In this document: one piece after another, positions 7,104-10,429 of the stretch | How positions within the stretch are numbered: position 1 is the stretch's first letter | Layout of the letters: every line of letters starts with the position of its first letter | From: Kribbella monticola | Lineage (GTDB): Bacteria > Actinomycetota > Actinomycetes > Propionibacteriales > Kribbellaceae | DNA length: 64,000 nt | Direction of reading: 5' to 3' | NCBI RefSeq assembly: GCF_003261635.1 | Contig: NZ_QFXK01000038.1 | Location: forward strand, 1-64,000 | Made by a program: the position numbers and the translations under genes | The notes under the pieces: model-generated | The model's database searches: none | What the model was told of the DNA's origin: nothing | What the model saw: the letters and a program-made list of their open reading frames with translations, nothing else

Positions 7104-7400
7104 TCAGACGGCTACTGCCACCTCGGCGACCTCGCCGTACTGCGCCACGACCTGGCGGTCGACCGGCTCCGCCTTCGGGGCCAGCGTCCGCAACGTCCAC
7201 GAGCCCGGCGCCGCGAAGAACCGGAAGTGCCCGGTCGCCGAGGTCGGCACCTCGGCCGTGAACTCACCAGTGGAGTCCAGCAACCGCACGTAGGCGCCGC
7301 CGACCGGCTCCTCGCCGCGCAGTACCTGACCCTGGATCACGGCTTCCTTGTCGACGTCGACGCCCTTGAGGTCGAGGCCACCCTGCTTTGCTCCGCACAT
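7104..7400 (-). CDS. DUF1416 protein
   Basis: 98 aa. The start MCGAKQGG at 7400 is the conserved N-terminus of DUF1416; the longer upstream frame overlaps the sulfurtransferase and is not used. The protein is a small beta-sandwich, transthyretin-like in pattern (VIQGQVLRGEEPVGGAYVRLLDSTGEF, then FRFFAAPGSWTLR). Its ATG lies two bases after the sulfurtransferase stop, and this pairing is conserved in actinobacteria. Biochemical role is not established; a link to sulfur transfer is inferred from the pairing. Confidence 0.9.
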   Translation of the reverse strand: MCGAKQGGLDLKGVDVDKEAVIQGQVLRGEEPVGGAYVRLLDSTGEFTAEVPTSATGHFRFFAAPGSWTLRTLAPKAEPVDRQVVAQYGEVAEVAVAV

Positions 7401-7402
7401 GG

Positions 7403-8251
7403 TCAGGCCTTCCCGGGCTCGTCGCCAAGGGCAACCGGTACGCCGACCAGCGAGCCCCATTCGGTCCACGAACCGTCGTAGTTCTTGACGTTCTCCTGGC
7501 CGAGGATCTCGTGCAGCACGAACCAGGTGTGCGCCGAGCGCTCACCGATCCGGCAGTACGCGATGGTGTCCTTGCCGAAGTCGACACCCGCGTCGGCGTA
7601 CAGAGTCTTCAGTTCGTCGTCGGAACGGAAGGTGCCGTCGTCGTTGGCCGCCTTGCTCCACGGGATGCTGGCCGCGGTCGGGATGTGACCCGCGCGCTGC
7701 GCCTGCTCCTGCGGCAGGTGGGCCGGGGCGAGCAGCCGGCCGGCGTACTCGTCGGGGCTGCGGACGTCGACCAGGTTCTTCACGCCGATGGCGTCCTTGA
7801 CCTCGTCGCGGAACGCGCGGATGTCGAGGTTCTGCGGCTTTGCCTTGTACTGCGTGGCTTCGCGCTTCACGACCTCGTCGGTCAGCTCGCGGCTGTCCAG
7901 CTCCCAGCGCTTGCGGCCGCCGTCGAGCAGGCGGACGTCGCTGTGGCCGTAGAGCTTGAAGTACCAGTACGCGTACGCCGCGAACCAGTTGTTGTTGCCG
8001 CCGTAGAGCACGACGGTGTCGTCGTTGCCGACACCGCGCGAGGACAGCAGCGCCTCGAACTGCTCCTGGTTGACGAAGTCACGACGGACCGGGTCCTGGA
8101 GATCGTCCTGCCAGTCGATCTTGATCGCACCGGCGATGTGACCGGCGTCGTACGCCGAGACGTCCTCGTCGACCTCGATCAGTACGACGTTCTCGTCGGA
8201 CTTGTGCTCCTCGACCCAGTCGGCCGAGACGAGCGCGGATTCCCTGCTCAT
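7403..8251 (-). CDS. sseA: Thiosulfate/3-mercaptopyruvate-type sulfurtransferase
   Basis: 282 aa with two rhodanese domains. Residues 1-140 are the inactive one (VLIEVDEDVSAYDAGHIAGA, LYGGNNNWFAAYAYWYF). Residues 150-280 are the catalytic one, with VDVRSPDEYAGR, AGHIPTAASIPW and the active-site loop YCRIGERS carrying Cys233. Actinobacterial enzymes with this loop are annotated CysA/SseA and move a sulfane sulfur from thiosulfate or mercaptopyruvate to acceptors. It is the second protein gene of an operon (DUF4395, this gene, DUF1416) preceded by a Cys-rich leader peptide, so expression probably follows cysteine supply. The exact donor is uncertain. Confidence 0.92.
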   Translation of the reverse strand: MSRESALVSADWVEEHKSDENVVLIEVDEDVSAYDAGHIAGAIKIDWQDDLQDPVRRDFVNQEQFEALLSSRGVGNDDTVVLYGGNNNWFAAYAYWYFKLYGHSDVRLLDGGRKRWELDSRELTDEVVKREATQYKAKPQNLDIRAFRDEVKDAIGVKNLVDVRSPDEYAGRLLAPAHLPQEQAQRAGHIPTAASIPWSKAANDDGTFRSDDELKTLYADAGVDFGKDTIAYCRIGERSAHTWFVLHEILGQENVKNYDGSWTEWGSLVGVPVALGDEPGKA

Positions 8252-8281
8252 GTGTGCTGCTCCTCAGGTGGTAGTAGCGGT

Positions 8282-8734
8282 TCAGGTAGTAGTAGCGGTG
8301 CTTGGCGTACGCATGCGTTGGATCAGCAGATAGGCCTCGCAGCCGAGGCAGAGCCCGACCGCCGCGTTAACGAACGCGGCGACCAGAGCGAAACCGGTGG
8401 CGACCACCCCGAGCACCTCGACGCCGGCCAGGTAGCCGATCAGGCCGACGACGGCGAAGACCAGCCCGACCAGCTGGGCGAACCGGGGCGGCGTCGCGTC
8501 TTCCGTCTCCTTCGGCGGACCGAGGCGCGGCCGGATCAGCCGCTTGAAGAGCTGCCCGTACGGCGAGGCCTGGACGCCGAACGCGACCGAGATCGCGAAC
8601 ACGACGGCCTGGACCGCCAGCGGCCACGGGCTGTTCAGTACCAGCGTCAACGCGAGGACAACCGTCGTGACGCCGGCCGCGAAGCGGAGTCCGCGGGGGT
8701 CGACCTGGGATTGTGCTGCCGTCCGACTGGACAT
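8282..8734 (-). CDS. DUF4395 membrane protein
   Basis: 150 aa, about four hydrophobic segments (residues 18-35, 38-53, 88-105, 107-135). It has the family's hallmarks: the FGVQASPYGQLFKRLIRPRLGP cytoplasmic loop and GLCLGCEAYLL near the C-terminus, whose two Cys could carry sulfur or form a redox pair (inference). It precedes the sulfurtransferase by 30 bp. That spacer and the gene's 3' end contain a duplicated GGTAGTAGTAGCGGT-like string. The role may be sulfur handling at the membrane, judged by context only. Confidence 0.88.
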   Translation of the reverse strand: MSSRTAAQSQVDPRGLRFAAGVTTVVLALTLVLNSPWPLAVQAVVFAISVAFGVQASPYGQLFKRLIRPRLGPPKETEDATPPRFAQLVGLVFAVVGLIGYLAGVEVLGVVATGFALVAAFVNAAVGLCLGCEAYLLIQRMRTPSTATTT

Positions 8735-8799
8735 GACGACTCTCCGGTGGGAGGTGGAACGAGCCGGGTCCGCCCGAAGACGCGGAAGGCGACGTACTG

Positions 8800-8824
8800 G
8801 GAACCGTGCTCAGCGACCGGTTCC
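8800..8824 (-). promoter_or_regulatory. Candidate attenuator hairpin after the leader peptide
   Basis: GGAACCG (8800-8806) pairs with CGGTTCC (8818-8824) over an 11-nt loop, just downstream of the leader-peptide stop and before DUF4395. The placement suits translation-dependent attenuation; no alternative pairing was worked out. Confidence 0.35.
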
Positions 8825-8847
8825 GGAGCGTTCGAGACGCCGCCTGG

Positions 8848-8928
8848 TCAGCAGGGACGACACAGGGACGAGCGCATGCGGCAGTTGTCCACTGCCCTGC
8901 GCTTGGTCAGCCATGTCGTGTACTCCAC
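8848..8928 (-). CDS. Cys-rich (polycysteine) leader peptide, 26 aa
   Basis: A short frame missed by length cut-offs. It reads GTG-Glu-Tyr-Thr-Thr-Trp, then LTKRRAVDNCR, then MRSSLCRPC and a stop, with Cys at 16, 23 and 26. This closely follows the pattern of the mycobacterial Ms5788A/Ms4527A leader peptides (LTxRRAVDLCR, then CLCR near the end), which sit before sulfur genes and make downstream expression respond to cysteine. Here it precedes DUF4395, sulfurtransferase and DUF1416. A -10-like TACTCT (8936-8941) lies 7 nt before the GTG, so the transcript is probably leaderless, as in the mycobacterial cases. There is no ribosome site. Asn replaces the usual Leu before the first Cys. Confidence 0.75.
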   Translation of the reverse strand: MEYTTWLTKRRAVDNCRMRSSLCRPC

Positions 8929-9033
8929 GGCACCGAGAGTACGGAAAGCCGGCAGGCCGGGATCCGATTGTCCCACTTATTGAGACAACTGATCACTATG
9001 CGAGAAGCTCCACACTGAGTGACCAGTTGTGCG

Positions 9034-9903
9034 TCACCGGTGGCGAGACTGCCCCACGACGACGTTGGTGTCCGCGACCTTGTCGTGCAGCGCCTGCTTC
9101 TTGTCGTCCCAGAGCGGCCAGAGGTAGTCGAGCAGACCCAGCAGTCCGAACAGGGTGCCGACGAGCGGGACCGCGCCGAGGATGCTGAGCGCGCCGTACA
9201 GACCGAAGCGCTTGAGAACGGCGACCGGGGTCGGCGGACCGGCGACGTCGCGGAGCCGGACGCTGATGCCGACCGCCATCTTCCCCGGCGTCGCGCCCTT
9301 CCTGGTGAGGAAGAAGAACTCGTACACGAAGTAAACCAGCAAGGCGATCCCGGTGGCCGGCAGGATCCACTTGTAGACGTCCCACGGCAGGGTCGTGTTG
9401 AACCGCGGCGTGGACCCGGCCCGGGCGCTGTCGAACATGTCGCTCTCGTAGTCGAGAGCCGCCTGCAGGTAGTGGTACCAGAAGTAGCCGGTGAGCGGCA
9501 GGCTCACCACCATGACGATGAGGCCGTCCAGGAACCTCGCCCCGACGCGCTTCCACCACCCCGACAACGGCACACCATCAGGCGTCGACGGCACCACAGG
9601 CCGATAACCAAAGGCCTGCTGCCCGTACTGCGGCCCGCCGTGCGGCCCCTGGTGAGGCTGCCCGTACTGCGGGGCGCCGTACTGCGGCTGTCCGTACTGC
9701 TGTTGTCCGTACTGCTGTTGTCCGTACTGCTGTTGTCCGTACTGCGGAGCCTGGGCAGGCTGCTGCTGCGGTCGACCGAACTCGCCCTCGTACGGCGGTG
9801 GGCCTGGCCGCGGGCGGCGGTGATCGGTCCACGCCGTGCCGTCCCAGTACCGCTGCGAGGACAGGTCCTTGGGATCGTCGTACCAGCCATGCGGAAAGCT
9901 CAC
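9034..9903 (-). CDS. RDD family membrane protein with DUF2510 head and QYGQ repeats
   Basis: 289 aa from the GTG at 9903. The longer frame starting at 9984 would overlap the thioredoxin gene and precede the DUF2510 consensus, so I reject it. Residues 5-33 are DUF2510 (GWYDDP, then QRYWDGTAWTDH). Residues 40-110 are a Gln/Gly/Tyr-rich linker with repeated QQQYG units. Residues 125-280 are the RDD domain: the RDD signature appears as GARFLDGLIV, followed by membrane segments and a conserved end (LWDDKKQALHDKVADTNVV). RDD proteins are small inner-membrane proteins of unclear, possibly transport-related, role. Three relatives occur at 32096-34276. Confidence 0.88.
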   Translation of the reverse strand: MSFPHGWYDDPKDLSSQRYWDGTAWTDHRRPRPGPPPYEGEFGRPQQQPAQAPQYGQQQYGQQQYGQQQYGQPQYGAPQYGQPHQGPHGGPQYGQQAFGYRPVVPSTPDGVPLSGWWKRVGARFLDGLIVMVVSLPLTGYFWYHYLQAALDYESDMFDSARAGSTPRFNTTLPWDVYKWILPATGIALLVYFVYEFFFLTRKGATPGKMAVGISVRLRDVAGPPTPVAVLKRFGLYGALSILGAVPLVGTLFGLLGLLDYLWPLWDDKKQALHDKVADTNVVVGQSRHR

Positions 9904-9955
9904 CGGCACAGCATCCCGCACACCGAGGTCGTCTGAGTAATCAGGCAGCGAGAAC

Positions 9956-10429
9956 TCAGTGCGGCTGGTGATCGACCGCGGCACCCAGGGCCGCGATGAC
10001 GTCCGGTTTACGAGGCTGGCCGCTGGCCCGAGTCACGATGGCGCCGGCGGCATCGAGGACCAGCACGGTCGGCGTACGGAGGATGTCCAGCCGGCGCACC
10101 AGGTCCAGGTGGGACTCGGCGTCCAGCTCGACGTGCCGGACGCCCTCGACCATCGACTCGACCTCGGCGAGCGTCCGCCGGGTCGCCCGGCAAGGCGCAC
10201 AGAAGGCGGACGAGAACTGCAGCAACGTCGCCCGCTCGCCGAGCTCGACCCCGAGGTCACCCTCGGTCAGCCGAACCTTGTCGCCCGCCTCGCTCTCGAC
10301 CTGCTCGCGCACTGCTGCCTTCCTGACCGGGTGCGTCCCGCGGAAGCGCCCGTCGAACCGTGATTTGAACACACTGAGACCGACGCCGACGGCGACCGCA
10401 CAGACCAGCACGATGATCCCAGGACTCAC
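9956..10429 (-). CDS. Membrane-anchored thioredoxin-like protein
   Basis: 157 aa. Residues 1-20 form one N-terminal helix (GIIVLVCAVAVGVGLSVF), then a thioredoxin fold with the redox motif FCAPCRAT near residue 78 and the cis-Pro loop RTPTVLVLDAAG. The anchor and CAPC motif suggest a thiol oxidoreductase at the membrane; whether the catalytic domain faces in or out is not clear. Start is GTG at 10429. It lies upstream of the RDD gene on the same strand with about 50 bp between once the RDD start is corrected. Confidence 0.85.
   Translation of the reverse strand: MSPGIIVLVCAVAVGVGLSVFKSRFDGRFRGTHPVRKAAVREQVESEAGDKVRLTEGDLGVELGERATLLQFSSAFCAPCRATRRTLAEVESMVEGVRHVELDAESHLDLVRRLDILRTPTVLVLDAAGAIVTRASGQPRKPDVIAALGAAVDHQPH

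Follow-up and report, generated by a model that had tools for sequence, protein, structure and literature searches.

A short, most likely leaderless frame with a constant UGU codon precedes the DUF4395–rhodanese–DUF1416 operon in Kribbella and may link it to cysteine supply

In Kribbella monticola, a short open reading frame stands in front of an operon encoding a DUF4395 membrane protein, a rhodanese-type sulfurtransferase and a DUF1416 protein, which raises the question of whether this frame is a relative of the mycobacterial Cys-rich leaders and whether it ties the operon to the supply of cysteine. We analysed the locus within a stretch of 64,000 nucleotides (hereafter, the window) and suggest, with a probability of about two thirds, that the frame acts as a regulatory leader ORF, most probably leaderless, through which the level of charged tRNA-Cys would govern the sulfur operon by translational attenuation.

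The first-pass annotation had proposed a 26-aa frame ahead of the sulfur operon, and this frame is real (Table 1). Its codons run GTG GAG TAC ... CGT CCC TGC TGA, it is translated as (M)EYTTWLTKRRAVDNCRMRSSLCRPC before the stop, and it is separated from DUF4395, located on the same strand, by 113 nt. The label “polycysteine” given to it was wrong: the window leader has three Cys, none of them adjacent and two of them conserved in the genus, while 27 of the 30 unique leader sequences of the genus Kribbella have two, and a run of consecutive Cys codons is absent both from the window leader and from these 27, in which the Cys are isolated.

Table 1. Features of the leader and sulfur operon region (window coordinates)
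Feature	Position	Strand	Basis
Imperfect palindrome TTGTCTCA-N5-TGGGACAA, candidate transcription-factor operator	8968..8988	(-)	conserved
-10 box TACTCT	8936..8941	(-)	TANNCT conserved before GTG
Leader peptide ORF, 26 codons + TGA, GTG start, predicted leaderless	8848..8928	(-)	NF042933 match, conservation
Codon 16, first conserved Cys codon (UGC); Gly or Arg in some leaders	8881..8883	(-)	codon counts
Codon 23, UGU Cys codon, proposed sensing codon	8860..8862	(-)	constant UGU
Stem-loop right behind leader stop codon	8787..8845	(-)	alignment A1, helices 3-5
Second stem-loop	8769..8786	(-)	alignment A1, helix 6
CUCC-CACC-GGAG hairpin hiding DUF4395 Shine-Dalgarno (SD)	8742..8753	(-)	alignment A1, helix 7
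DUF4395 membrane protein, first operon gene	8282..8734	(-)	PF14340 E 1.7e-48
Rhodanese-type sulfurtransferase (CysA2/SseA type)	7403..8251	(-)	PF00581 E 5.8e-34; NF008557 E 1.9e-35, below cut-off
DUF1416 protein (SseC type)	7104..7400	(-)	PF07210 E 2.1e-41

The start of the frame has the anatomy that was expected of a leaderless gene. The TACTCT box lies exactly where the first-pass annotation had placed it, seven bases ahead of the GTG, and a TANNCT box precedes the GTG by 6 nt in 25 and by 7 nt in 13 of the 38 sampled Kribbella genomes; all 38 keep the GTG start, and none has an SD-like sequence upstream of it. A consensus promoter scan gave no match at the promoter region of the window leader. 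Judging from the sequence, this leader is probably leaderless, its GTG being located where the promoter box predicts the transcript start.

Further upstream, the motif of the palindrome, TTGTCTC[AG]-N5-[TC]G[AG]GA[CT], is present 61 to 40 nt before the GTG in 38/38 sampled Kribbella genomes. Since its genome count (18 with no more than one mismatch, both strands) does not exceed that of a reversed control (17), only the conserved position speaks for an operator role. GTCTCA/TGAGAC-like sites also occur upstream in some other families. In Streptomyces coelicolor, NdgR binds upstream of cysA (SCO4164) (PMC4340878), and the regulator acting at the palindrome would possibly be NdgR-like, though the published NdgR motif differs. 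At another locus (L120), a perfect GTCTCACTCAATGAGAC (1501-1517) stands upstream of MRSILLVLVRRAD (1569-1610), which is likely a leader peptide of the branched-chain kind, and the gene behind this peptide reads like ilvB; the occurrence of the palindrome at both places hints that one regulator may serve both.

Among the operon proteins, the rhodanese matches a named contig of Kribbella catacumbae at 93% identity. Close to its C-terminus, the DUF4395 protein has the CxxC motif CLGC (window 8339-8350), which may fit a thiol role. A neighbouring DUF2510/RDD membrane protein carries a glutamine-rich repeat of the YGQQQ type (window about 9610-9760).

The kinship with mycobacterial Cys-rich leaders, which had been proposed at first from the sequence of the frame, is supported by the model NF042933 (“Ms5788A family Cys-rich leader peptide”), which matches the window leader with 34.9 bits (E 9.1e-9). 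This family includes the M. smegmatis uORF before Msmeg_5788 and the M. tuberculosis uORF before cysA2, and the window leader shares with them the LTKRRAVDxCR core, the place before a rhodanese–DUF1416 operon, the likely leaderless start and the UGU codon for the motif Cys. Unlike them, it has no long Cys run but three separate Cys, whereas the leaders of the mycobacterial-looking family f7 have 6-8. With the second model, NF042934 (“putative leader peptide”, cis_reg_atten), the window leader shares the [VI]DxxRxxxxxC core and scores 19.8 bits, and the genus peptide of another locus (L010) scores 22.4. The frame may be called “unlisted” in the sense that neither of the two NCBIfam leader models gives it a score that reaches the cut-off (45 and 27, respectively). 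NF042933 reached its cut-off in none of the 147 genomes of the order; it was exceeded in at least 28 of the 197 genomes of the class and by a leader of the Streptomyces-like family f22 (46.5 against 45). The window leader is a genuine relative of the known Cys leaders; it belongs to a branch poor in Cys, whose scores under the public models are too low for it to be named.

Such leaders have a published history. Cys-codon leaders before cys operons were predicted by Seliverstov in 2005, including those of Propionibacterium acnes and Bifidobacterium longum; the window leader resembles them in its placement and differs in that those cases are described as Cys codon runs near the stop (PMC1262725). 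In mycobacteria, Cys-rich uORFs precede cysA2/Msmeg_5788, Rv0485 and nirA, and ribosome occupancy was shown for the cysA2 uORF (PMC4633059). Canestrari 2020 is cited for Cys-dependent attenuation in M. smegmatis (PMC9031893 and PMC13236596), which the latter source terms translation attenuation. The uORFC-8-2, a cysS attenuator candidate of Rhodobacterales, is likewise a Cys-codon uORF read as a tRNA-Cys sensor, but it differs from our case in its tandem Cys codons dominated by UGC, its intrinsic terminator and its alphaproteobacterial hosts (PMC8632094).

To what extent the leader accompanies the operon was assessed in two surveys. In the order-level survey (147 genomes, leader match threshold E 0.05), DUF4395 was found in 110 genomes and a leader match in 100. 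The leader is located upstream of DUF4395 on the same strand in 88 genomes, at 76-229 bp in 84 of them and at 1.8-1.9 kb in four; 22 of the 110 DUF4395 genomes have no leader match nearby, and 51 of 139 leader matches lie elsewhere than ahead of DUF4395. The leader + DUF4395 pair is present in 38/38 sampled Kribbella genomes, so the peptide is conserved before DUF4395 in relatives and the objection from a lack of conservation, which the first-pass annotation had raised against itself, fails.

In the class-level survey (197 genomes, all counts being lower bounds), at least 115 of the 147 listed DUF1416 genomes have the leader no more than 3 kb upstream of that gene, and the number rises to at least 129 when 14 leaders of the family f23, found later, are included; 18 genomes are without a leader among the matches listed. 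In f22, the distance from the leader to DUF1416 is about 1.0-1.1 kb and no DUF4395 adjoins the leader (15/15 among the matches listed); in the named Streptomyces loci (4/4), 223-260 nt separate the end of the leader from the rhodanese gene. The leader thus keeps to the head of the operon. For f23, the profile search gave a leader in 1/15 genomes among the matches listed, and the upstream regions of all 15 hold a single-Cys leader (10 unique); the apparent absence is therefore explained by leader divergence. These leaders (L133-L147) keep the core, have lost the first Cys (IDFGR, IDYRR), retain one Cys and resemble the leader found in Jiangella. The leaders of Microlunatus flavus and Friedmanniella show DHGR.

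We suppose that under plentiful cysteine the ribosome would run through the leader, and the stems located behind it would keep DUF4395 translation low. When Cys-tRNA is scarce, the ribosome would stall at the conserved UGU (codon 23), a stall to which the nascent chain (K)RRA[VI]DxxRxxxxL, itself conserved, would contribute; the RNA would then rearrange and the operon would be expressed. Control at the level of translation is more likely than terminator control. With so few Cys codons, a sensor working by codon starvation alone is less obvious.

The RNA structure was analysed in an alignment of 36 genus sequences (A1; 38 minus two repeats), in which seven chosen helices have 98.8% of cells paired, although this structure was derived from the same sequences, which favours it. 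Covariation amounts to 6 two-sided pairs against 1.2 in shuffles (0/500), four of the six belonging to helix 5 in the post-stop stem-loop, where 4/9 pairs are changed on both sides. The hairpin claimed behind the leader stop is present and is larger than the “small” one described. Helix 7, which covers the DUF4395 SD, has 96.5% of cells paired and a variable loop. Two stems fall within the ORF; as they show hardly any variation, they are little informative. In overall fold stability the region does not stand out (z = -1.57 for 8925-8715 and +0.24 for 8850-8715), and stability alone provides no evidence.

In folding without a ribosome, the unpaired probability of the SD of the window leader region was 0.015, and the mean over the sequences was about 4-5% both with no ribosome and with one placed on the start, codon 16 or the stop. 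A simulated stall at UGU, compared with the stop-codon state, increased SD accessibility by more than 0.05 in 12/36 sequences and decreased it in 2, while stalling at codon 16 brought no net change (1 up and 4 down, or 3 up and 3 down, by footprint). In the window itself, the UGU stall opens the SD (0.69 vs 0.007), and the start codon stays paired. The support that ribosome-position folding gives to the proposed switch is weak.

A different way of using the same leader would be Rho-dependent transcription attenuation, in which the ribosome on the leader covers or uncovers a Rho site and the hiding of the SD is irrelevant. Rho was proposed in 2005 for the mycobacterial leaders because terminators were missing (PMC1262725), and the window leader has none either, as no intrinsic terminator (GC-rich stem + U run) was found in 8600-9100. 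Rfam gave no match above the gathering score in 8000-10000, the sole sub-threshold match (9587-9703, E 0.36) being outside the leader region. However, the Rho-site prediction of 2005 was called rather weak in the same paper (PMC1262725), and at our locus the stretch behind the stop is structured and conserved, its last stem pairing with the SD. Conserved stems and SD pairing suit translation control, and we consider the Rho scenario unlikely.

The sensing role that translational attenuation would assign to codon 23 is addressed by the codon data. The last Cys of the motif, which follows Leu (or Cys in f7), is encoded by UGU in 100/100 unique leaders from 16 families, and the search pattern demanded no Cys at this position. 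At the codon 16 position, the same leaders have TGC (86), TGT (4), GGT (7) or CGG (3), and the active-site Cys of rhodanese, where visible in these loci, is UGC in 69/69 cases (15 families, f23 not included). A second set of 80 named loci, chosen by rhodanese similarity only and overlapping the first sample by at least four records (L198, L199, L200 and L203, genomes already sampled), contains a pattern-matching leader in 70 loci, with UGU in all 70 (56 unique), and UGC for the rhodanese active-site Cys in 80/80; the ten loci without such a leader are three Glycomyces, Hoyosella, one Microlunatus and five metagenome bins. For the broader NF042934 family, UGU is present in 30/30 of the loci listed; many of these are the same operon, and in 11 the core differs. 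In unique leaders outside f7, the base after UGU is C in 91/93 cases, though the residue encoded there varies among R, P, Q, L, C and M. The core Ala codon is GCA or GCG in 91/100 unique leaders, although ten window ORFs use GCC most often for Ala. UGU would be read by wobble if a tRNA-Cys with the anticodon GCA is the only one present. No published statement of a UGU rule was found in our literature search, which did not reach the key papers.

Across the 16 families, the number of Cys per leader is 6-8 only in f7, 2-4 in most others and one in f23. If the leader were a mere ribosome loader or translational coupler, without cysteine sensing, the two Cys of most genus leaders and the single one of f23 would be accommodated. 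Yet this reading is improbable in view of the Cys codon kept at the same place in every unique leader though not asked for, and of the gap of about 113 nt, compared with the 10-11 bp linked to reinitiation (PMC4833913).

Is the frame itself under selection, or is the DNA conserved as an RNA element in which the frame is incidental? Within the genus, 25 unique sequences give a pN/pS of 0.169 when read as the leader, and the same DNA gives 1.435 and 6.736 when read in the alternative frames (23 unique sequences each, stops read as a residue), indicating that the leader is selected as a peptide. Class-wide, pN/pS of the six core codons [KRQ]RRA[VI]D is 0.135, a value lowered by the use of the core in the search pattern. 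An RNA element would account for the constrained synonymous sites (UGU in all leaders, the restricted Ala codons) and, in one of three analyses, for a leader 5′ segment that pairs better with the UGU segment belonging to it than with UGU segments taken from other families; it would not account for the low in-frame pN/pS or for a core kept while its codons vary, and we regard it as highly improbable.

The outcome of the pairing analysis depends on the grouping of sequences: p was 0.19 with 13 clusters, ranged from 0.14 to 0.002 across five thresholds of clustering, the Cys-run leaders being included or left out, and from 0.00005 to 0.03 with 16 families including f23 (five windows, with and without f7), four control windows in this family-label analysis giving z of 0.06, 0.17, -0.59 and +2.0. 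The f7 leaders show no such pairing. Pairing of the leader 5′ segment with its own UGU segment is thus suggestive; in the genus, RNAalifold prefers another partner for the 5′ segment, the DUF4395 start region. A chance open frame, which has nothing but short length in its favour, is rejected by its presence at the same place in 38/38 sampled genus genomes and in 16 families and by the codon pattern.

Leaders of this type are not restricted to the DUF1416 operon, and UGU is kept in 20/20 further cases away from it. In the same genome, the leader HIDLLRVSSALC (G000 C51:127914) precedes a putative amino-acid ABC transporter permease and the leader HVDLGRMRSAIC (G000 C72:143079) a putative sulfite/nitrite-reductase-like gene, both with UGU at the motif Cys; these two leaders, which have the same core, lie at loci L099 (1474-1560) and L100 (1483-1575), respectively, and the gene names are readings of the sequence. 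The reductase-side leader HVDLGRMRSAIC recalls the mycobacterial uORF before nirA. At L099, GGAAGGAG lies upstream of the ATG, and this leader may therefore not be leaderless.

UGU is thus kept ahead of different genes, also where only one Cys is left. We tentatively propose, at somewhat less than even odds, that the actinomycete Cys leaders share one device which is not a codon-run counter: the chain [VI]DxxRxxxxx would sensitise the ribosome at a single UGU, and the mycobacterial runs would be a later elaboration.

The link of the leader to DUF4395–sulfurtransferase–DUF1416 outside mycobacteria, suggested in the first-pass annotation, holds with respect to the conserved operon position, but it is already known. 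The extension beyond mycobacteria is not new because the f22 leader passes NF042933 and the 2005 paper includes non-mycobacterial leaders (PMC1262725). The tie of DUF4395 to sulfur by regulation is not new either, as the title of Lyubetsky 2014, given in the reference list of PMC4833913, joins the regulation of PF14340 to sulfur metabolism. Specialists may not expect an unvarying UGU in combination with a conserved core of the peptide; both are facts of the sequence, while their cause is inferred. The contrast of UGU with its synonymous UGC turns the vague notion of a “Cys-rich leader” into a sharp testable prediction, and in many families of actinomycetes the DUF4395–rhodanese–DUF1416 operon is likely to be under a control that is linked to cysteine.
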